A stretch of 22,449 nucleotides of DNA. It comes from a virus. Below the pieces are notes generated by a model. It ran no database searches. It was not told where the DNA came from and worked only from the letters and a program-made list of their open reading frames with translations. The stretch covers positions 1 to 22,449 of the IMG/VR virus record IMGVR_UViG_3300021959_000438. One strand, given 5' to 3'. The translations under genes were made by a program, and so were the position numbers. Shown piece by piece: positions 1 to 8,671 of the stretch; position 1 is the first letter of the stretch; each line of letters starts with the position of its first letter.

Positions 1-1233
1 CAAGATATCATTGGTGGTGCTTTAGTCACTAATGGGACACATACAGGTTTATCAGTAGCATACGATGATGCTGGTGATGGTGCAATAGACATAACTGTAA
101 GTCTTTCTTCATTCGATACAGACGACCTTTCAGAAGGTTCAACAAACCAATATTTTACAGATGCAAGAGTGATGACTTCACTAGCAACTGTAGATGCAAA
201 TATTGTTCCAACTACAGACGTAACATACGATTTAGGTTCTTCTTCAAAACAATGGAGAGATATCTATGTTGGGCCAGGTTCATTATATGTTAATGGACAA
301 CAAGTGGTTTCAGATAATTCAGGAACAATTACTGTTTCTGCAGACGATGACCAAAACGTATCACTTCAAACAGGTGGTTCAGGTGATATCGAATTAGATG
401 CAACTGGAACAGGTAATATACAAATTAAAGCACCTATGCAGATACAAGCATCAAATGCTATATCTTCATCAGATGGAAATGCAATTCAATTCTCAAACTC
501 GATTGATGTAGATGCAATTGAATCAAGAAGCACAGACACTAACTTAGTGTTAACAGGAAATGGAACAGGTAATGTCACATTAAATGACGATGTTGCAATC
601 ACAGGTAACTTAACAGTTTCAGGAACAACTACTACAGTTAATTCAGAAACTATATCACTTGCAGATAATATTATTGCATTAAACAGTAATTTTACTTCAG
701 GTTCACCAACAGAAGACACTGGTATCAGTGTGACTCGTGGTGGTTCTGCTTCTAAGACATTTCTTTGGGACGAAACAAATGATAAATGGTCTGTTGGTTC
801 AGAAACAATGGTTGCAGGAACATTTGAAGGAAACCTAACAGGTAATGTTACAGGTAATGTAACTGGTAGTTCAGGTTCAACAACAGGTAATGCTGCTACA
901 GCAACTGCACTTGCAACTTCAAGAACAATCGGTTTAAGTGGAGATGTTTCAGGTTCAGGTTCTTTTGATGGAACAGGAAACCTTACAATTACAGCAACAA
1001 TTGCAGATGATTCACATAATCATACCATTGCAAATGTTGATGGATTACAGACTGCATTGAACACGAAATATGAAAGTGGTTCAAATGTATCTTTAGGAAC
1101 TGTTGCTTCAGGTGCAATAACAATCACCAATGCAACGAATGCTGGTGGAACTGCAAGAAATATGTACCAATCAACATCAGCACCTACGAGTGGTGATGGT
1201 GCAGTTGGTGATATGTGGATTCTTTACTCCTAA
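1..1233 (+). CDS. Tail-fibre-like virion protein, 5' end outside the window
   Basis: The frame is open from base 1, so the true start lies upstream; the GTG at 169 is internal. The visible 410 residues hold the motif STNQYFTDARV near residue 48, then Gly/Thr/Asn-rich beta-type repeats (GTGNI, GNLTVSGTTTTVNSETISLA) and a stretch of GNVTGNVTG repeats. These patterns are typical of fibre proteins of marine T4-like phages, where a trimeric beta-structured shaft carries a C-terminal tip. The C-terminus has NMYQSTSAPTSG followed by GDMWILYS, common at the ends of such fibres. The role is probably host recognition at the tail or baseplate periphery. Which fibre it is (long, short or accessory) cannot be decided. 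It is followed by a late promoter and two repeat-protein genes. Confidence 0.8.
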   Translation, partial: QDIIGGALVTNGTHTGLSVAYDDAGDGAIDITVSLSSFDTDDLSEGSTNQYFTDARVMTSLATVDANIVPTTDVTYDLGSSSKQWRDIYVGPGSLYVNGQQVVSDNSGTITVSADDDQNVSLQTGGSGDIELDATGTGNIQIKAPMQIQASNAISSSDGNAIQFSNSIDVDAIESRSTDTNLVLTGNGTGNVTLNDDVAITGNLTVSGTTTTVNSETISLADNIIALNSNFTSGSPTEDTGISVTRGGSASKTFLWDETNDKWSVGSETMVAGTFEGNLTGNVTGNVTGSSGSTTGNAATATALATSRTIGLSGDVSGSGSFDGTGNLTITATIADDSHNHTIANVDGLQTALNTKYESGSNVSLGTVASGAITITNATNAGGTARNMYQSTSAPTSGDGAVGDMWILYS

Positions 1234-1252: not shown

Positions 1253-1260
1253 TATAAATA
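1253..1260 (+). promoter_or_regulatory. T4-type late promoter (TATAAATA)
   Basis: Exact TATAAATA in the 52-nt gap after the fibre gene. T4-like late promoters consist of this single -10-like element, read by host polymerase with the phage gp55/gp33/gp45 system. The expected start is about 6 nt downstream (near 1266), giving a leader of about 20 nt before the ATG at 1286. No strong Shine-Dalgarno sequence is visible in that leader. Confidence 0.7.
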
Positions 1261-1285: not shown

Positions 1286-2230
1286 ATGGCATCAGGTTCA
1301 CAAAAAGTTAAAACACCAACGGGTTGGAATGCAACTCAAGGTGCTTGGGTAAAAACTGGTAGTACTACTTGGAAAGCAGTTGACCAAATATATGTTAAAA
1401 CACCTACAGGGTGGAATGATGCATCAGGTCAACAAAGTGCCCAACAACCGTATCCATATATTGCGAATAGTCAAACACCTTATATTGCAAACGCACAGCA
1501 ACCATACCCATACATTGCAAATAGTCAAAGTCCGTATATTGCTAATGCACAACAACCTTATCCATACATTGCAACTGGTCAAGAACCAAATATAAGGAAC
1601 GCTCAGACACCGTTTACATATCAAAGAACTGGACAGACACCTTTCACATATCAATATAGAAGTCCATCAACATATGCTAGACAGGGTCAAACACCGTTTA
1701 CCTATCAGCATAGACAACCTAATACGTATGCAAGACAGGGACAAACACCGTTTACGTACCAACATAGAAGTCCGTTCACATACAGTCATAGGTCACCATT
1801 TACATACAGTCATAGGTCACCATTTACATACAGTCATAGGTCACCATTTACGTATGATGCAAGGTATCCTGCAAATGCTCAAAGTCCTAGTAGTAAACAG
1901 TCACCTTTCACATACAGTGCAAGGTATCCTGCGAATGCTCAGAGTCCTAGTAGTAAACAGTCACCTTTCACATACAGTGCAAGATATCCTGCAAACGCAA
2001 GACAACCAGTATCTGCAAGGAATCCGTTTACATATAGAGTACCGTACATTGCTAATGCAAGACAACCGAATAGTGCAAGAAACCCATTCACGTATAGAGT
2101 ACCTTACATTGCTAATGCTCGTGCATCTGTAGGTTCACAGCAACCGTTCATATATCAAGGAAGACAACCTGTAGTATATTTCTTCGGTTCGCCAGGATTT
2201 GGTACTGGTTTCAACCCACTAACTAAATAA
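1286..2230 (+). CDS. Proline/tyrosine-rich tandem-repeat structural protein, copy 1
   Basis: 314 aa. Residues 1-48 form a small Trp-rich module with KTPTGWN at 9-15 and again at 38-44. From about residue 50 to 300 the protein is almost only short repeats around proline: QQPYPYIANSQ, SPFTYSHR (8 aa), YPANAQ and SPSSKQ (6 aa), and NPFTYRVPYIANAR. These assemble into 20-residue super-repeats. Acidic residues are nearly absent and Arg, Gln and Tyr are frequent. The C-terminus is Gly/Phe-rich (FFGSPGFGTGFNPLTK). No signal peptide or membrane segment is seen. Similar repeat proteins occur beside fibre genes in marine T4-like phages, but I know of no proven function. Position between fibre and neck genes, and a late promoter, suggest a virion or fibre component (inference). 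Other long frames inside it on both strands are by-products of the repeats. Confidence 0.75.
   Translation: MASGSQKVKTPTGWNATQGAWVKTGSTTWKAVDQIYVKTPTGWNDASGQQSAQQPYPYIANSQTPYIANAQQPYPYIANSQSPYIANAQQPYPYIATGQEPNIRNAQTPFTYQRTGQTPFTYQYRSPSTYARQGQTPFTYQHRQPNTYARQGQTPFTYQHRSPFTYSHRSPFTYSHRSPFTYSHRSPFTYDARYPANAQSPSSKQSPFTYSARYPANAQSPSSKQSPFTYSARYPANARQPVSARNPFTYRVPYIANARQPNSARNPFTYRVPYIANARASVGSQQPFIYQGRQPVVYFFGSPGFGTGFNPLTK
1769..1864 (+). repeat. 24-bp tandem repeat, about 4 copies (SPFTYSHR units)
   Basis: Copies at 1769-1792, 1793-1816, 1817-1840 and 1841-1864. The middle two are identical; the first differs mainly in its first bases and the last has changed to SPFTYDAR. Each copy codes for eight residues, so copy-number change keeps the frame. 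Confidence 0.9.
1841..1980 (+). repeat. 60-bp tandem repeat, about 2.3 copies
   Basis: Copies start at 1841, 1901 and 1961 (the last partial). Each full copy codes for a 20-residue block of three proline units: SPFTYSAR, YPANAQ, SPSSKQ. Copies 2 and 1 differ by a few bases only. Confidence 0.9.
2021..2120 (+). repeat. 60-bp tandem repeat, about 1.7 copies (NPFTYR-VPYIANAR)
   Basis: Copies start at 2021 and 2081. The 20-residue block is NPFTYR, VPYIANAR, QPNSAR. The same type of block recurs in the next gene at 2461-2613, with a different linker (QPVIYR), so the two genes share repeat vocabulary. Confidence 0.85.
2223..2229 (+). promoter_or_regulatory. Possible late promoter (CTAAATA) over the stop codon
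   Basis: CTAAATA overlaps the TAA of the first repeat gene. CTAAATA also occurs in the gaps before gp18 and before the genes at 21074 and 21345. A start near 2235 would give a leader of about 37 nt containing the purine-rich AAAGGGAG (about 2254-2261) before the ATG at 2272. Overlap with coding sequence makes it less certain. Confidence 0.4.
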
Positions 2231-2271
2231 ACAATGAAAACGATAATTAATATAAAGGGAGATAACATACA

Positions 2272-3078
2272 ATGGTAACTGGATATTATCAAAGTGCTTT
2301 CAGCGCATTCGGACAAACTCCCGTTATTGCACAACAGCCTTTTACCTATAATGCTAGGTACCCAGCAAGTGCTCAGCAACCGTATACGTTCCAATCACCA
2401 TTTACATATAGTGCAAGATATCCAGCAAGTGCTCAACAACCGTTTACATATCAGAGTCCATTTACATATAGGGTTCCTTATATTGCTAATGCTAGACAAC
2501 CTGTAATCTATAGAAACCCATTCACATATAGGGTTCCTTATATTGCTAATGCTAGACAACCTGTAATCTATAGAAACCCATTCACATATAGGGTTCCATA
2601 TATTGCTAATGCACAGCAACCTAATATCAGGTCAGCACAAGAACCTAATATCAGGTCAGCACAAGAACCTAATATCAGGTCAGCACAAGAACCAAACATA
2701 AGAGATGCACAACAACCGTATCCTTATATTGCTAATAGTCAGAGTCCTTACATTGCGAATGCTCAACAACCGTATCCGTATATTGCAAATGCACAAGAAC
2801 CAAACATAAGAGATGCACAACAACCGTATCCGTATATTGCGAATGCAAGACAACCTAGTACTTACCAACATAGAAGTCCGTTCACTTATCAGAGAACTGG
2901 TCAAACACCGTTTACCTATCAGCATAGACAACCTAATACATATGCGAGACAAGGACAAACTCCATTCACTTATCAGAATAGACAACCTGCTACATATGCT
3001 AGACAGGGTCAAACACCTGTAATTAGATGGGATGGTGAGTTAAGTCAACAATGGCCAGGAACACCGATATCTTCTTAA
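2272..3078 (+). CDS. Proline/tyrosine-rich tandem-repeat structural protein, copy 2
   Basis: 268 aa, paralogue of the preceding gene but without its Trp-rich N-terminal module. It starts with a short Tyr/Phe segment (MVTGYYQSAFSAFG) and goes straight into proline-centred repeats: YPASAQ, QPFTYQ, SPFTYR, VPYIANAR, QPVIYRN, then EPNIRSAQ three times in a row, then QQPYPYIANAQ and QTPFTYQHR blocks. It ends WDGELSQQWPGTPISS, unlike copy 1. A stretch of 41 bases (2899-2939) is identical to 1685-1725 in copy 1. The purine-rich AAAGGGAG about 10 nt upstream supports the start. Function unknown; a fibre-associated or adhesive virion protein is likely. It is followed after 35 nt by the glycosyltransferase gene, possibly a functional link. 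Confidence 0.75.
   Translation: MVTGYYQSAFSAFGQTPVIAQQPFTYNARYPASAQQPYTFQSPFTYSARYPASAQQPFTYQSPFTYRVPYIANARQPVIYRNPFTYRVPYIANARQPVIYRNPFTYRVPYIANAQQPNIRSAQEPNIRSAQEPNIRSAQEPNIRDAQQPYPYIANSQSPYIANAQQPYPYIANAQEPNIRDAQQPYPYIANARQPSTYQHRSPFTYQRTGQTPFTYQHRQPNTYARQGQTPFTYQNRQPATYARQGQTPVIRWDGELSQQWPGTPISS
2461..2613 (+). repeat. 60-bp tandem repeat, about 2.5 copies
   Basis: Copies start at 2461, 2521 and 2581 (partial). The first two differ by about one base in 60, which points to a recent duplication or continued homogenisation. Each codes for 20 residues containing FTYR, VPYIANAR and QPVIYRNP. Confidence 0.95.
2620..2691 (+). repeat. 24-bp tandem repeat, 3 identical copies (PNIRSAQE)
   Basis: Perfect copies at 2620-2643, 2644-2667 and 2668-2691, followed by a diverged copy in which NIRSAQ becomes NIRDAQ. 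Perfect identity suggests recent expansion. Confidence 0.95.
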
Positions 3079-3113
3079 GACCTATATACTAGAAACATTT
3101 CGGGTATTACATT

Positions 3114-4676
3114 ATGAGTAACTTTATTGAATTAAAAGATTTAGACACAGCAATGTCTACACTTTCTGAAATTGAAGATTTCAAAGATACCTATTTTCAT
3201 TTAGGGTCATTACAATTATCCTCAGACTATACTTCTAGTAAAACCTTTAAAATTTTAAAATATGCGATGGAAGATATTCTTCCTCCTATGAAATTATTTA
3301 CTTGGGGTGAGTTTGAGAAAGAACGTAAGAAAGACAAATGGGCCCTATTCAATGGACTTAAAAATGAGTCTCCTTGTTATCATAAATTTCTACCAATAGG
3401 ATATACATCAAAACCAAGAGCTGCAATGCCAGGAGTAGCAGGAATGGATACTATGTCTCTTGATGGAGAATACGTAGATGTAGAAGATTACATTGATTGG
3501 AAAGATGGTTATGTTCCGACAGATGGTGATATAACATCCTTACAGTCTATGTATTATCATTCAGCAAAAGCACATTGGTTGATACATAGTATTCAAGAAG
3601 ATGGACTATGGGCTCCAATTCAAGGAAAGGTGAATGAACTAGTAAAAGACTCTCGTTATCAATTACAGATTCATCCTGGCTCTATTAGGTCAGGAGTTTT
3701 TGAAGAGATGGGAGACCCCGAATTAGAACTTTGCATTATGGATAAATATGATGCAATCGATTCTCCAAAAATTAGTGTGGAAGAACTTCTTGATTATTGG
3801 AAGGGGAAGTTAGATAAAAGAGCTCCTGCAAGAGGAGATACTAATGCACATTATAACATATCCTTTACTATTATACAAGGTGCATTAGAATACCACACTA
3901 GTCTTATGGATGTTTCACACTTTAGACCTATTGTTCACGAGTTTAATAAAAAGGTTCACACTTTATCTAAAGGTAAACCGTTTAATATCTACATTGGATA
4001 TGATAGTAGACACCAACAATTACCTACCATTGCAAAGAAGTCTATTGAAGATACTATTAAACGAGGTATGGGTAATGGACACCTTGTAGATGAGATGAAG
4101 TTTGTTCCCGAAATTAAGTTTCTTGACAAGTCTAAAATTCCCGAGTATAATAGAGAATACGCAAATCAATCTACAGAGTTCACTTACAGTAGATTCTTAA
4201 TACCTTACTTAGAGAACTATGAAGGGTTTAGTATGTTCATTGATGATGACTTTATCTTTGAGAAGAGTTTATTACCTATGTTCTATTACTTACATCCCGA
4301 TGATGCTGTTGCTTGTATTCAATACCCACAATATAAACACGACTCTACTAAATTTGATGGGGAGATTAATATAGACTATCCTTGCAAACTTTGGTCAAGT
4401 CTAATGATATTTAACAATGGTCACGAAGACTGTAAAAAATTAACACCCGAAGTTATCAATACTTGGACTGGTAAACAATTACATCAATTCGAGTGGACAG
4501 ACAAGATTAGTAAGATACCCGAAAAGTATATTTTTACAGAAGGATATGATGACCCAAAAACTAAATGGGACTTCAATGGAATACATTATACAAGAGGTGG
4601 GCCTTGGGTAAAAGGTATGGATTATTCGCATATAAATAATCTAGACATATACAAGAGATGGGAAATACTATCTTGA
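3114..4676 (+). CDS. Glycosyltransferase (GT-A fold, GT8-like) with long N-terminal extension
   Basis: 520 aa. The C-terminal part (about 288-500) looks like a GT-A sugar transferase: NIYIGYDSR (291-299) as the nucleotide-sugar binding start, STEFTYSRFLIPYL (353-366), the metal-binding acidic motif FIDDDF (375-380), SSLMIFNN (428-435) and HYTRGGPW (491-498). This pattern is known from GT8-like enzymes that use UDP- or similar sugars; donor and acceptor cannot be told. Residues 1-285 are not typical of the family. Within them, residues 155-212 (SIQEDGLWAPIQ, then IHPGSIRSG, then a hydrophobic ELELCIMD strand) faintly resemble the ParB/sulfiredoxin-like fold, a weak suggestion only. It lies 35 nt after two proline/tyrosine repeat genes, so fibre glycosylation is a reasonable guess; glycosylation of DNA or host surface is an alternative. 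No strong ribosome binding site is visible. Confidence 0.75.
   Translation: MSNFIELKDLDTAMSTLSEIEDFKDTYFHLGSLQLSSDYTSSKTFKILKYAMEDILPPMKLFTWGEFEKERKKDKWALFNGLKNESPCYHKFLPIGYTSKPRAAMPGVAGMDTMSLDGEYVDVEDYIDWKDGYVPTDGDITSLQSMYYHSAKAHWLIHSIQEDGLWAPIQGKVNELVKDSRYQLQIHPGSIRSGVFEEMGDPELELCIMDKYDAIDSPKISVEELLDYWKGKLDKRAPARGDTNAHYNISFTIIQGALEYHTSLMDVSHFRPIVHEFNKKVHTLSKGKPFNIYIGYDSRHQQLPTIAKKSIEDTIKRGMGNGHLVDEMKFVPEIKFLDKSKIPEYNREYANQSTEFTYSRFLIPYLENYEGFSMFIDDDFIFEKSLLPMFYYLHPDDAVACIQYPQYKHDSTKFDGEINIDYPCKLWSSLMIFNNGHEDCKKLTPEVINTWTGKQLHQFEWTDKISKIPEKYIFTEGYDDPKTKWDFNGIHYTRGGPWVKGMDYSHINNLDIYKRWEILS
4123..4151 (+). promoter_or_regulatory. Consensus sigma70-type promoter inside the glycosyltransferase gene
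   Basis: TTGACA at 4123-4128 and TATAAT at 4146-4151, separated by 17 nt, an exact match to the bacterial housekeeping consensus. It lies in sense orientation within coding sequence (residues LDKSKIPEYN). It would drive the block from 4719 on, or an internal fragment of the glycosyltransferase. A chance match cannot be excluded, but a second identical arrangement lies 550 nt downstream. Confidence 0.5.
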
Positions 4677-4701
4677 CAAATAACGATTAGTAGTTTATAA
4701 T
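4673..4701 (+). promoter_or_regulatory. Consensus sigma70-type promoter before the accessory block
   Basis: TTGACA at 4673-4678 overlaps the glycosyltransferase stop codon; TATAAT at 4696-4701 follows after exactly 17 nt. The predicted start is about 4708, directly at the Shine-Dalgarno GAGGT (4708-4712), giving an unusually short leader of about 11 nt before the ATG at 4719. This looks like an early promoter for host polymerase, placed among late structural genes. Confidence 0.75.
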
Positions 4702-4718
4702 ATTAGTGAGGTAACTAT

Positions 4719-5276
4719 ATGAAAAGTGAATTGATATATGGTGAAGACGGTGTTCTTCACATTACGAAACAAAATGGACTTAGATATTCTTTTGAGAATG
4801 TTGACCCACCTGCTCTAGGATTCGAATACGAAGTTTTAATCTATGCAGACTTAGAAATAAAAATAGAAAAGTGGGAAGATGATAAACATTTTGATGAACA
4901 GGAATCCTTTTTTCTAACAGATGCAGATAAAGATTCTATAGAACTTTACATTGAAAACTCCGAACCCCCTTTAGGATTTAATTTAAATAGACAATACATT
5001 AATGAAATAAACAATGTATGTCACGATTTTGTCAATGAACAAATGAAAATGACGGGATTTGATAATTTAAATGAAGTAGTGTATGCAGGTAGAGAAGGTT
5101 CTGCTCATCCTAGAAGGTCTGATGCAAGACGTATTATGGAATATGCAGATGCAGTTTGGATGTGTTATGTTCAAGTGGAAGAAGAGATTTACAACACTAG
5201 GGAAGATACTCTAAAAGATATGCAAGAATATCTCTCTGTTATACCAACACCCCTATTAGCACCCGATACAGTATAG
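4719..5276 (+). CDS. Unidentified 185-aa protein, first gene after the sigma70 promoter
   Basis: I do not recognise a family. The protein is acidic in its first half, with predicted beta-type segments (ENVDPPALGFEYEVLIYADL at about 26-45), then a mostly helical second half with NRQYINEINNVCHDFVNEQM, a basic turn AHPRRSDARR and a helix around DAVWMCYVQVEEEIYN (about 149-164). The end SVIPTPLLAP is Pro-rich. No signal peptide, membrane helix or catalytic motif is seen. The helix-plus-Pro tail faintly recalls small phage fibre-assembly factors, but this is only an impression. Start is well supported: GAGGT six nt before ATG and a consensus promoter just upstream. The next gene starts 1 nt after its stop, so it is probably co-transcribed with the oxygenases. 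Confidence 0.7.
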   Translation: MKSELIYGEDGVLHITKQNGLRYSFENVDPPALGFEYEVLIYADLEIKIEKWEDDKHFDEQESFFLTDADKDSIELYIENSEPPLGFNLNRQYINEINNVCHDFVNEQMKMTGFDNLNEVVYAGREGSAHPRRSDARRIMEYADAVWMCYVQVEEEIYNTREDTLKDMQEYLSVIPTPLLAPDTV

Positions 5277-5277
5277 T

Positions 5278-5991
5278 ATGACTTCACTTGATGTTGTCTA
5301 CTTGGATAGTCCGTTTAAGGTCGATACCCTACCATTAGATAAGGTTTATGTTATAGACAATTATCTAGACACATCATTACATCATTCATTGGATGATTTT
5401 TTTACTAGACAATCACATTGGGCAAAGACCAATCAAGTTAATGGAGATAATCCTACTGGACTTCCACATCATTCCTTTTGGGGTGCATCCTTTCTAACTG
5501 GAGTTGATGAACACGCTGAGGATTCATTATTATCCATCCTCCCTAAGTGGTTCAATAGAAGATTACAAACTGATTTTCAATTTAAGTGGGAGAGGTTTCA
5601 GTATATGGGATTAAACTCTCAAACACAAGGTCTACACGGGACAACTCATTCAGATTGTCAAGATGAAGATGAGTGGAATCTTTCTTTTTTATACTACTAT
5701 AATAAATTTTGGAATCCTTCTTGGGGTGGACAATTAAGATTTTATGATTCACCACAACAAGGATTGGAAGGTAGAGATAACCATATAAAAAATCATCAAA
5801 TTGCCGAAGTTGAGTTTAAACCAAATAGACTATTAATGTTTGATGGTAGAATACCTCACGGTGCTGATGCTCCAAATGCAAATGCACACTATATGGACAG
5901 ACGGTCAGTTGTAGTTAGAGGTGATGAAGTAAGATTAGTTAACAATGAGGAGATGTTTCGTGCCGACGATAGAATTTACTTGCTACGATAG
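5278..5991 (+). CDS. 2-oxoglutarate/Fe(II) dioxygenase, prolyl-4-hydroxylase-like
   Basis: 237 aa. The facial-triad pattern is visible: HSD at 124-126 in GLHGTTHSDCQDEDEW, the distal His194 in RIPHGADAP, and Arg208/209 for 2-oxoglutarate binding in DRRSVVVRG. The strand WGGQLRFYD (149-157) and NRLLMFDG (183-190) are typical of the double-stranded beta-helix of this superfamily (2OG-FeII_Oxy_3 / P4Hc type). Such enzymes couple decarboxylation of 2-oxoglutarate to hydroxylation of a substrate, often a prolyl side chain. Substrate here is unknown. It starts 1 nt after the previous stop and its 3' end overlaps the next gene, which indicates tight co-translation. Related genes are common in marine T4-like phages. 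Proline-rich proteins encoded 2-4 kb upstream are candidate substrates (inference). Confidence 0.8.
   Translation: MTSLDVVYLDSPFKVDTLPLDKVYVIDNYLDTSLHHSLDDFFTRQSHWAKTNQVNGDNPTGLPHHSFWGASFLTGVDEHAEDSLLSILPKWFNRRLQTDFQFKWERFQYMGLNSQTQGLHGTTHSDCQDEDEWNLSFLYYYNKFWNPSWGGQLRFYDSPQQGLEGRDNHIKNHQIAEVEFKPNRLLMFDGRIPHGADAPNANAHYMDRRSVVVRGDEVRLVNNEEMFRADDRIYLLR
5947..5952 (+). promoter_or_regulatory. Ribosome binding site that favours the GTG start at 5960
   Basis: GAGGAG at 5947-5952 lies 7 nt before the in-frame GTG at 5960, an ideal distance. The ATG at 5945 in the same frame overlaps this element and has no purine-rich element at proper distance, so it is unlikely to be the start. Confidence 0.65.
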
Positions 5992-6841
5992 TGATACCGT
6001 AAAAAACTTTAGACCAGTCTTAGCAAAAGACATTTCACCCGATTGGTGGAAAAAGATGAAGATACAATCTTCTCAAGCTACTATAAAGACACAGACAATA
6101 CGCTCTTGTCCTGCAATGGACGATTGGTTAAAGAGTGGGTGGTTGTTAGTTGCAAATCGTGATATGACAGTAACTGCAGGGTATCGTAAAGAAGTTGACG
6201 AAGATAGTAATGTATTCGTAACAGCAAATGACCGTAAAGGATATGCATCACCCTCACACGGTTCACATCAATTCGATGGTGTATTCGAATACTTTGGAAC
6301 AGATGCTCCAATAAAAGATGCATTTAAAATGAGGAATCCTTGGAATATTGTTACACCTGAAGGTTATTCTTGTATGTACTTAGACCCATTTTTATTCCAA
6401 AATAAATACTTTGCAACTTGGCAAGGAATTATAGATACAGATAAGTTTAACGCTAATATGGATAATGCACAGATAATATTTTACCCTAAAGTTGACCACG
6501 GATTTACTATACTGAAAGGAACACCTCTTTGTCAAATTATACCATATAAAAGAGAAACTTGGAATGCAAGTTACATACAATATGACCACGAAACTTATCA
6601 ACGAAATAGGTCAACTATTACAACCAATTTAAATCACGAAAGTATGGATGAGTGGAATAGAAAGAAAGGATTTTCTGAAGAGGAAAGAGCGGATACTGGT
6701 AAGACTGGTGCTTATCGTAAAGGTTCTTATTGGAACCCGAAAGGTAAAATGTTTAAAGAAGACTCTCCACCACCCGAATGTCCTATGCATAAATCAGAAG
6801 ATGATGATAAAAAAGAAATACAATTGGAGTTAGACGTATAA
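5960..6841 (+). CDS. DUF6065-like protein of unknown function
   Basis: 293 aa from the GTG at 5960 (298 aa if ATG 5945 is used). I chose the GTG because of the well-spaced GAGGAG and because the protein then starts PTIEFTCYDSD, a natural first strand. Visible pattern: ISPDWWKKMK near residue 28, RSCPAMDDWLKSGWLL near 47-62, an AGYRKEVDE segment, PWNIVTPEGYSCMYLDP near 144 and NAQIIFYPKVDHGFTILKGT followed by a hydrophobic strand. This CP...W...G-W and late GT-P-L-C-Q-I-P arrangement resembles the DUF6065 proteins found next to oxygenases in cyanophages; no reaction is established for them. The C-terminal 60 residues are charged and probably disordered (KSEDDDKK). Its stop overlaps the next start by one base (TAATG). 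It overlaps the preceding oxygenase gene by 32 nt. Confidence 0.65.
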   Translation: MPTIEFTCYDSDTVKNFRPVLAKDISPDWWKKMKIQSSQATIKTQTIRSCPAMDDWLKSGWLLVANRDMTVTAGYRKEVDEDSNVFVTANDRKGYASPSHGSHQFDGVFEYFGTDAPIKDAFKMRNPWNIVTPEGYSCMYLDPFLFQNKYFATWQGIIDTDKFNANMDNAQIIFYPKVDHGFTILKGTPLCQIIPYKRETWNASYIQYDHETYQRNRSTITTNLNHESMDEWNRKKGFSEEERADTGKTGAYRKGSYWNPKGKMFKEDSPPPECPMHKSEDDDKKEIQLELDV

Positions 6842-7545
6842 TGGCAGTTAGATTATTATTCCCAACCTTCGTATTTGAGAGGGATTTGTTAGACCCAAAC
6901 TTGAATGAACGACAAGGTATCGATGAAAAGTATTTAAAGATGTGCAAGGATGAGATAGATGCAATGAGAAGGAAAGACCCTGTAGGTCGAAATGTATCTA
7001 ATAGGTCAGGTTGGCAATCAGACGATGGTGTCGAGTCAAACCCTGGCTTAAGCAAACTGATGAGAACAATCGAACAGACATTTAAGGATGAAGTCCTACC
7101 ATTTCACGGTATAGACACGACAAAATGTACGATACATATTGGTAACTCTTGGGCGAATATAAACGATAAGGGTTCTTGGAACTCTCCACATTTACATAAT
7201 GGATGTTGGTATAGTGGTGTATTTTATGTAAGAGCAGATGGTGATGAGGGTGAAATCGTAATGATAGACAAAGACACTAAAGTAGTGTCAGATTTTCCTA
7301 ATTCTCAAAGGGTAAGAGAACAGTTTCCGTATAAACCTAAAGAAGGTAATCTCATATTGTTTCCTAGTGGATTAATGCATATGGTAACACCAAACACAAC
7401 AGATAAAGAACGATATAGTATTTCCTTTAATATGAATATGAGATATCATAGTCCGACTTATCGTCACGGGGATGTGCAGAATTACAATCCTAATGAATTT
7501 GTTTTTAATATTGATGAAAACGGAGACCCTATAGTATCATTATAG
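6841..7545 (+). CDS. 2-oxoglutarate/Fe(II) oxygenase, TIGR02466-like
   Basis: 234 aa. The N-terminus LLFPTFVFERDL is typical of the TIGR02466 / 2OG-FeII_Oxy_5 family, which starts with a strand that reads like 'FPTPVY'. The iron site is seen as SPHLHNGCWYSGVFYV (115-130; His117 and/or His119), and the distal part as GNLILFPSGLMHMV (169-182; His180) with Arg191 in KERYSISFNMN for 2-oxoglutarate. SWANIND (103-109) is another family feature. Substrate unknown. Unlike the oxygenase at 5278 it belongs to a different branch of the superfamily, so the block holds two distinct hydroxylase types and not a duplication. Start overlaps the upstream stop (TAATG), so it is translationally coupled. A late-promoter motif begins directly after its stop codon. 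Confidence 0.8.
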   Translation: MAVRLLFPTFVFERDLLDPNLNERQGIDEKYLKMCKDEIDAMRRKDPVGRNVSNRSGWQSDDGVESNPGLSKLMRTIEQTFKDEVLPFHGIDTTKCTIHIGNSWANINDKGSWNSPHLHNGCWYSGVFYVRADGDEGEIVMIDKDTKVVSDFPNSQRVREQFPYKPKEGNLILFPSGLMHMVTPNTTDKERYSISFNMNMRYHSPTYRHGDVQNYNPNEFVFNIDENGDPIVSL

Positions 7546-7553
7546 TATAAATA
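7546..7553 (+). promoter_or_regulatory. T4-type late promoter placed 5 nt before a start codon
   Basis: Exact TATAAATA immediately after the oxygenase stop codon. With the usual spacing, transcription would start at about 7559, which is the A of the next ATG. No Shine-Dalgarno sequence is possible in between. The same 5-nt arrangement occurs before gp20. Confidence 0.6.
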
Positions 7554-7855: not shown

Positions 7856-8671
7856 ATGTCAGAACCAAACTCAAAAGCATCGTTAAAAGAATACATTAAA
7901 AGAAGACTTGGAGCTCCAGTCTTAGAAATCAATGTAGATGATGACCAAATGGACGATAGAATTGATGAAGCATTGCAATACTTCAGAGAGTATCATTACG
8001 ATGGTTCAATTAAGACCTATCTAAAACATCAGATTACAAAAGACAAGAAGACTACAATGAAGACCAACGAGTCTACTACAGAGACTTCTGCTGGTACTCA
8101 CGCATATGATGATGAGGTGACACTTGAACAACAGAACTATATCGTATTACCCGAACACGTTCTTGCAGTAATTAACATTTTCCCATTTAATGATAAACAT
8201 AATATGAATATGTTTGACCTTAGATATCAACTAAGACTCAATGATTTGTGGGATTTAACTTCTACTAATATACTATATTACGAACAAGTACAACAACATA
8301 TCAATCTATTAGACCATATTTTAGTAGGTCGTACTCCTATTAGATATAACACACATATGAATAGACTATACTTAGATATGGATTTAGACTCTATCTATGA
8401 TGATGAATACATTCTTATTGAGTGTTATAGAAAGTTAGACCCATCCAACTTTACTGATATCTTTAATGATATGTGGTTAAAACGATATTCAACTGCATTA
8501 GTTAAATATCAGTGGGGTGAAAATCTATCCAAGTTCCAAGGTATCGCACTTCCAGGCGGGGTGACACTCGATGGTTCTGCAATGAAACAAGAAGCACAAG
8601 AAGAGATTACAAAATTAGAAGAAGAATCTAGACTGAATTATGAAATGCCAGTTATGGATATGATAGGTTAG
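7856..8671 (+). CDS. gp13: Neck protein gp13 (head completion)
   Basis: 271 aa, somewhat shorter than T4 gp13 (309). T4 gp13 joins the portal after DNA packaging and, with gp14, forms the neck to which the tail binds. Family features: the N-terminal LKEYIKRRLGAPVLEINVDD followed by DRIDEALQYFREYHYDG, a central LPEHVLAVINIFPF, the MFDLRYQLRLNDLW block, and a C-terminal MWLKRYSTALVKYQWGENL with LPGGVTLDGSAM. Residues about 55-80 are Thr/Lys-rich and probably a loop. Position before gp14, gp15, gp16 and gp17 is as in T4. It has its own late promoter and a fair ribosome binding site. Identification is firm from both sequence pattern and order. Confidence 0.92.
   Translation: MSEPNSKASLKEYIKRRLGAPVLEINVDDDQMDDRIDEALQYFREYHYDGSIKTYLKHQITKDKKTTMKTNESTTETSAGTHAYDDEVTLEQQNYIVLPEHVLAVINIFPFNDKHNMNMFDLRYQLRLNDLWDLTSTNILYYEQVQQHINLLDHILVGRTPIRYNTHMNRLYLDMDLDSIYDDEYILIECYRKLDPSNFTDIFNDMWLKRYSTALVKYQWGENLSKFQGIALPGGVTLDGSAMKQEAQEEITKLEEESRLNYEMPVMDMIG

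Follow-up and report, generated by a model that had tools for sequence, protein, structure and literature searches.

Does a tailed phage encode the means to decorate its own fibers? The question is raised by IMG/VR virus record IMGVR_UViG_3300021959_000438, analyzed here over its complete length of 22,449 bases (the window), which covers part of the late structural genes of a T4-like phage. In this window a fiber protein gene is followed by the genes for two proline-rich repeat proteins (R1 and R2; collectively R), a glycosyltransferase (GT), a conserved protein (U185), a prolyl-hydroxylase-like 2-oxoglutarate (2OG)-Fe(II) oxygenase (OX1), a protein here termed D6065, an oxygenase-like protein (OX2), an 86-residue protein and two neck proteins. 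We find that the repeats follow a strict two-residue period and that R, GT and the oxygenase unit U185-OX1-D6065-OX2 are inherited together in a clade of uncultured marine T4-like phages, and we consider below whether GT and the oxygenase unit may act on R1 and R2.

First, we analyzed the repeat proteins. R1 consists of an N-terminal domain of the VKTPTGW type (~50 residues), dyad Pro/Tyr repeats and a Gly/Phe C-terminus, while R2 ends in RWDG..QQWPGTPISS; both are covered by tandem arrays of 24 to 60 bp, as detected by Tandem Repeats Finder (TRF). The repeat words (QTPFTYQH, RSPFTY, QEPNIRDA, QQPYPYIANA, RYPANA and RQPNTYARQG) vary in unit length. Inside the repeats of the window, successive prolines are 2, 6, 8, 10 or 14 residues apart and never an odd number, odd spacings (29 and 15 in R1; 13 and 3 in R2) being confined to the ends outside the repeats. 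Counted over the whole proteins, 35 of 37 spacings in R1 and 33 of 35 in R2 are even (binomial p ~5e-9 and 2e-8). The initial annotation was right about the presence of proline repeats, but its spacing of 6–9 residues gives way to these values. All 55 tyrosines in the window repeats are out of phase with proline. In 131 dereplicated relatives, 4459 of 4813 proline spacings in repeat runs (92.6%) are even; control structural and enzyme proteins from these loci give 47.6%, and shuffled sequence 46%. Spacings of Tyr/Phe are 92% even too; relative to proline, 95% of Tyr, 91% of Phe and 90% of His lie out of phase and 84% of Ile in phase, and 79% of the prolines have Gln or Arg two residues upstream.

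The two-residue period is a new observation. Insertions of two residues seem to be tolerated and insertions of one residue not, as predicted for an alternating, beta-strand-like chain, and the periodicity suggests that the repeats fit an extended fiber of beta type. Since the prolines share a phase, hydrogen-bond donors would be lost from a single edge of such a strand. A Pro/Tyr dyad grammar whose unit lengths vary freely but stay even is an unusual fiber design, for which no known family was matched. R1 has relatives of 75% identity in IMG/VR; a tblastn search with R1 and a distant blastn search with R1/R2 against 50,697 cultured phage records gave no match, to which the low-complexity filter may contribute.

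Two variations were seen among the relatives. One repeat protein (L037:1351-2976) contains a block of seven-residue units (RQPVDAF QQPTAAY RSPTDAS RQPVAAV), an exception to the even spacing. In others, R1 ends in an intein-splicing/Hint domain (L008:10001-11305, C-terminus; L064:10001-12325; L211:3-836) with the signature CF..GT.V... and a C-terminal HNFFAN..(M/L)VHN; the PF14890 scores are 45.1 bits for L008, 41.2 for L211 and 32.1 for L064, against a cut-off of 35.8. The L008 domain begins right behind a GGGG stretch, as if trimming or splicing the fiber.

The initial annotation had read the locus by analogy with the extensin/hydroxyproline-rich glycoprotein pathway of plants and algae, in which P4H acts first and glycosylation follows. 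The likeness lies in Pro/Tyr/Ser-rich repeats accompanied by a P4H-like oxygenase and a glycosyltransferase, and the repeats, GT and OX1 do form one conserved cassette (see below). The extensin-type chemistry is not supported: among 5646 prolines of the relatives there is no [ST]PPP, the hallmark of extensin Ser-(Pro)n blocks, and just 19 Pro-Pro pairs; prolines stand isolated after [R/Q]x, and the period is two, compared with three in polyproline-II and collagen. With 4.7% glycine and 92.6% even spacing, the repeats do not have the Gly-X-Y pattern of collagen either. Extensin is a poor guide because SPPP is missing, Pro-Pro is rare and the periodicity is wrong; Thr, Tyr and Ser of the repeat words would be as good candidate sugar acceptors as hydroxyproline.

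Second, we analyzed GT. The AlphaFold2 model has a predicted local distance difference test (pLDDT) score of 88 and comprises an HPGS-R domain (~residues 134–286) and a predicted GT-A domain (~290–505), in which Asp377 and Asp379 of the DxD motif are invariant in the alignment of GT relatives. Foldseek returned 86 PDB matches at E ≤ 1e-3, the best being UGGT and GT8 enzymes; LgtC, the xyloside xylosyltransferase XXYLT1, glycogenin and the PBCV-1 capsid glycosyltransferase are among these leading matches, which include enzymes that glycosylate proteins. As judged by profile, the window protein lies below the GT8 (PF01501) gathering score (15.0 vs 24.3 bits), and GT8 matches at E ≤ 0.1 occur in 22 of 36 relatives (best 2.1e-5). 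The N-terminal part carries an invariant HPG..R motif. A ParB/Srx-like layout, perceived by eye, drew no support from a PDB profile search (best 0.025, unrelated). In the same phages the N-domain is also encoded alone, directly behind the genes for a HAD phosphatase and a CMP (cytidine monophosphate)-sugar (Kdo-type) cytidylyltransferase, with which it makes up a mini-operon of the baseplate module (L343:4000-5985, L344:7209-9297 and L345:4957-7120); this stand-alone protein has no relative among cultured phages.

Third, OX1 scores above the PF13640 cut-off (37.1 vs 27 bits). Its HxD...H residues (His124, Asp126 and His194) together with Arg208 and Arg214 are invariant in 34 relatives, so that the 2OG-oxygenase site is complete, and its PDB profile matches (P4H, TPA1, PHD2) are nearly all of prolyl-hydroxylase type, the best at E 2.3e-4 and the remaining ones weak. 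We classify OX1 as prolyl-hydroxylase-like, with a predicted activity. A pattern scan of bacterial genomes gave no OX1 relatives, and nothing is drawn from a match to the NCBIfam 'FlmC family' (40.7 against a cut-off of 240), FlmC being described as a cytidylyltransferase of the flagellin glycosylation pathway. OX2 is above the cut-off for both PF13759 and TIGR02466, and its solved relatives are all uncharacterized proteins. These results bear out the GT-A glycosyltransferase, P4H-like oxygenase and second oxygenase named in the initial annotation; its 'DUF6065-like' label for D6065 is weak, since the PF19541 gathering score is not reached and just 1 of 28 D6065 relatives gives a match (E = 0.026), and phrog_7084 is the better family (9e-37). 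D6065 resembles haloarchaeal virus proteins at 20–28% identity, and U185 has no Pfam, PHROG, NCBIfam or PDB match.

We then compared the locus across related phages. The order R-GT-U185-OX1-D6065-OX2-neck is intact in all 164 loci uncut by contig ends, 156 of them by coordinates and 8 on inspection, the GT open reading frame (ORF) there being over-extended into R2. The 164 loci were anchored on R, GT or terminase and include some from the same or near-identical phages; they hold 81 distinct GT proteins. The terminase-anchored set was chosen independently of the cassette, and in its 33 loci that extend 8.5 kb or more upstream the order is likewise fixed: 32 start at R, and the one without R before GT is read as a contig cut. 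The automatic D6065 label failed in one of the 33, and a profile search found D6065 in every testable locus. Of 24 records that were picked out by the repeat-word DNA pattern alone and then re-searched, 12 had both GT and OX1, including all 10 with a terminase match. Repeat-bearing contigs without GT have no terminase match either, and the five that were read (L354, L393, L398, L402 and L420) contain a fiber region with a second repeat pair, R3/R4, from the same clade; such contigs are therefore counted as cut. At all testable loci GT stands beside its presumed structural substrate and is conserved with it, an arrangement expected of virion self-glycosylation.

Among the carriers, terminase identity to the window never falls below 76%. 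In the sister clade, typified by C48C1 (the nearest cultured phage by terminase, ~57% identical), R, GT, OX1, D6065 and OX2 are absent from the complete 156-kb genome of C48C1 and from eight contigs of 67–160 kb (U185 was not searched in these), and all six cassette types are absent from 19 loci that reach 6 kb or more beyond the neck on its upstream side. A sister-clade 'R' call in L245 proved to be a false positive, an ordinary long fiber protein. In the co-occurrence analysis suggested in the initial annotation, independent distribution, which would have refuted its reading, is not seen: repeats, GT and the P4H-like gene are jointly present in one clade and jointly absent from its sister. 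That the cassette genes are not distributed independently may reflect a single gain; no complete genome with a terminase identity between 57% and 76% was found. Minimum pairwise identities fall to 37–42%, with gene order and complete active sites kept. Co-divergence is 0.67 within the cassette vs 0.57 with neck genes (bootstrap difference 0.04–0.15); it seemed strong with one control gene and modest with three, and we use the modest figure.

The cassette is divided by its promoters. An exact late motif, TATAAATA, lies ahead of R1 in 12% of relatives vs 1% of shuffled sequences, and the exact motif is missing upstream of R2 in the window. Before U185, a sigma70-type promoter with at most two mismatches is found in 62% of relatives vs 8% of shuffled sequences, and no other upstream region of the block exceeds 11%. 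The remark in the initial annotation that the oxygenases have host-type early promoters and the repeats late ones agrees with the TTGACA-N17-TATAAT at the oxygenase unit and the late motif before R1. The conserved sigma70-type promoter splits the cassette into a late part, R1-R2-GT, and an early part, U185-OX1-D6065-OX2. The neck, sheath and portal genes are preceded by exact late promoters. Enzymes made early and substrates made late would be consistent with modification but do not prove it. A second exact TATAAATA occurs at 4631–4638, within the 3' end of GT and ahead of the early U185 promoter, and the oxygenase unit may accordingly be expressed late as well.

Taken together, the period of the repeats, the order of the genes, their shared presence or absence, the GT-A fold predicted for GT, the intact catalytic residues and the conserved promoter boundary lead us to propose the following. 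R1 and R2 would be long, thin fiber (or fiber-tip) proteins of the virion with extended, beta-like chains, in which Pro, Gln/Arg, Thr and Ile would face one way and Tyr, Phe, His and Ala the opposite way. GT, probably part of the same late operon, would attach a sugar to a recurring hydroxyl of the repeat words, namely Thr, Tyr or Ser in words like [R/Q]xP-F/Y-T-Y. The co-inherited U185-OX1-D6065-OX2 unit would start early from its own sigma70 promoter, and its enzymes would therefore be present when the late fiber proteins are made; OX1 would hydroxylate a residue, most simply the recurrent Pro, OX2 and D6065 would perform a further step, and the outcome would be a densely decorated fiber. 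As a whole, we hold decoration of R1/R2 fibers by GT and the oxygenase unit to be a tentative explanation, a little short of an even chance. Glycosylation of R1/R2 by GT is about evenly balanced, hydroxylation of R1/R2 by OX1 is rather unlikely, and a sequential pathway with both enzymes acting is less likely again. We give similarly little weight to a system of dedicated OX1/OX2-then-GT steps on the phage's own beta-type fiber, in which the [R/Q]xP... grammar would be at once a fold code and an enzyme recognition site.

Several points weigh against decoration of R1/R2. The case is built from sequence and models; the AlphaFold2 model of the R1 monomer (13 sequences) is uninformative at a pLDDT of 35, which leaves periodicity as the basis of the beta-fiber. 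Late-module genes of T4-like phages are all syntenic, and linkage within a single clade may trace to one gain. The excess of co-divergence is small, with one neck gene (NECKb) nearly as high. R3/R4 lie in the fiber module without a neighboring GT or oxygenase. Finally, GT and the oxygenases may form separate sub-modules, the promoter boundary between them being conserved, and distant OX1-like genes (with an OX2-like gene in one of two records) occur in cyanophage records without R or GT.

The last points would suit two modules that are merely adjacent: a late R1-R2-GT module for fiber glycosylation and an early auxiliary module, U185-OX1-D6065-OX2, parked in the late region and directed at a host protein, a metabolite or 2-oxoglutarate itself. 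The conserved sigma70-type promoter sits exactly at the boundary between them, OX1- and OX2-like genes occur in cyanophages that lack the repeats, and for cyanophage 2OG oxygenases an effect on the 2-oxoglutarate and nitrogen status of the host has been proposed (PMC3037559). However, the modules are never separated in the 164 loci and are jointly absent from the sister clade, and GT co-diverges more with OX1 (r 0.78) and D6065 (0.83) than with NECKa (0.62), though NECKb reaches 0.75. We consider mere adjacency possible, if on the unlikely side.

It is less probable that GT, and the oxygenases with it, act on a glycan of the host surface or on a different virion protein, with R1/R2 as unmodified fibers. 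Host-modifying genes are unusual within a late structural block, the adjacency of GT and R is obligate, and the two are jointly absent from the sister clade. On the other hand, the GT N-domain also stands alone beside the cytidylyltransferase of the baseplate module, so that the sugar chemistry is not exclusive to R, and sugar enzymes for cell-surface change are common in phages (PMC9602691). Plain synteny, with repeats and enzymes that have no functional link and were inserted at the neck in one clade, would suit a single carrier clade (perhaps one evolutionary event) among equally syntenic structural genes, but is similarly improbable given that order and complete active sites outlast the divergence noted above.

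For the decorated-fiber proposal, analogy points to the modification of mimivirus collagens and virion glycosylation in mycobacteriophages as better precedents than plant extensin. Mimivirus collagens are served by a viral prolyl/lysyl hydroxylase and glucosyltransferases (L230, R699), with lysine hydroxylation and glycosylation shown in vitro (PMC9546862). Both systems combine virus-encoded repeat proteins, a 2OG hydroxylase and glycosyltransferases; that of mimivirus concerns Gly-X-Y collagen in an amoebal giant virus, whereas ours comes from a tailed phage, has a period of two in place of Gly-X-Y and is predicted from its genes. Mycobacteriophage glycosyltransferases act on the phages' own structural proteins (Che8 gp110, Corndog gp38 and Myrna, as cited in PMC12363180); the targets there are capsid and tail-tube proteins, in contrast to the repeat proteins and two 2OG-oxygenase-type genes of the present block. 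The A64R-type capsid glycosyltransferase of PBCV-1 (PDB 2p6w/2p72/2p73) likewise has a GT-A fold and a virus protein substrate (Foldseek TM, template modeling, score 0.54–0.57 by target length, ~10% identity), but the phage GT has an additional N-terminal HPGS-R domain. Virus-encoded modification of own repeat or virion proteins is already known as a type, of which the proposed cassette is a variant.

2OG-Fe(II) oxygenases are common, unexplained genes in marine T4-like phages, and the cassette offers them a physically linked candidate substrate. The sequential OX1/OX2-then-GT reading, if true, would amount to a two-step protein modification system that a bacteriophage directs at its own virion, and would provide the orphan marine-phage oxygenases with a substrate; the repeat grammar is of interest to structural virology even without any modification.

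The ORFs were found at the positions, and with the gene types, of the initial annotation (Table 1). The virion neck genes begin at 7856, downstream of the 86-residue gene, and after these and further genes come terminase, sheath, tube, portal, protease, scaffold and capsid-like ORFs, the later names being taken from the order in annotated relatives.

Table 1. Features of the cassette and its borders in the window
Feature	Position	Strand	Remarks
Fiber-like protein, gene preceding the repeats	1..1233	+	5' end cut off; PHROG matches to tail fiber / structural protein families
T4-type late promoter motif TATAAATA upstream of R1	1253..1260	+	Exact match
R1	1286..2230	+	314 residues, 38 Pro; TRF arrays; dyad Pro/Tyr repeats
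R2	2272..3078	+	268 residues, 36 Pro; TRF arrays; dyad Pro/Tyr repeats
GT	3114..4676	+	520 residues; N-terminal HPGS-R domain and predicted GT-A glycosyltransferase
Sigma70-type promoter TTGACA-N17-TATAAT	4673..4701	+	Exact; overlaps GT stop codon
U185, conserved 185-residue protein	4719..5276	+	REGS.HP..S.AR motif conserved
OX1, prolyl-hydroxylase-like 2OG-Fe(II) oxygenase (predicted)	5278..5991	+	PF13640 6.5e-9
D6065, phrog_7084 protein	5945..6841	+	47-base overlap with OX1 end
OX2, oxygenase-like	6841..7545	+	PF13759 / TIGR02466 / phrog_81
Late promoter motif ahead of 86-residue gene	7546..7553	+	At most 1 mismatch in 82% of relatives

In some phages, R3/R4, whose repeats are Arg-rich, adjoin a gene resembling arginine deiminase/amidinotransferase (weak PF02274 match, DEWSPLREIVVGT motif), located at L393:1091-1972 (minus strand), L420:5221-6084, L398:3806-4699 and L002:3486-4367. 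Among cyanophages, the 2OG-Fe(II) oxygenases belong to the same families as OX1 and OX2 (PF13640/PF13759; phrog_274, phrog_81) but are only ~26–38% identical to them, and the two cyanophage-type records that were searched in full have neither repeats nor GT nor D6065. The late block of Synechococcus phage ACG-2014d contains an OX1 homologue immediately ahead of terminase (L236:8983-9591); its label there, 'DNA endonuclease V' (phrog_274), looks like an annotation error that has been passed on.

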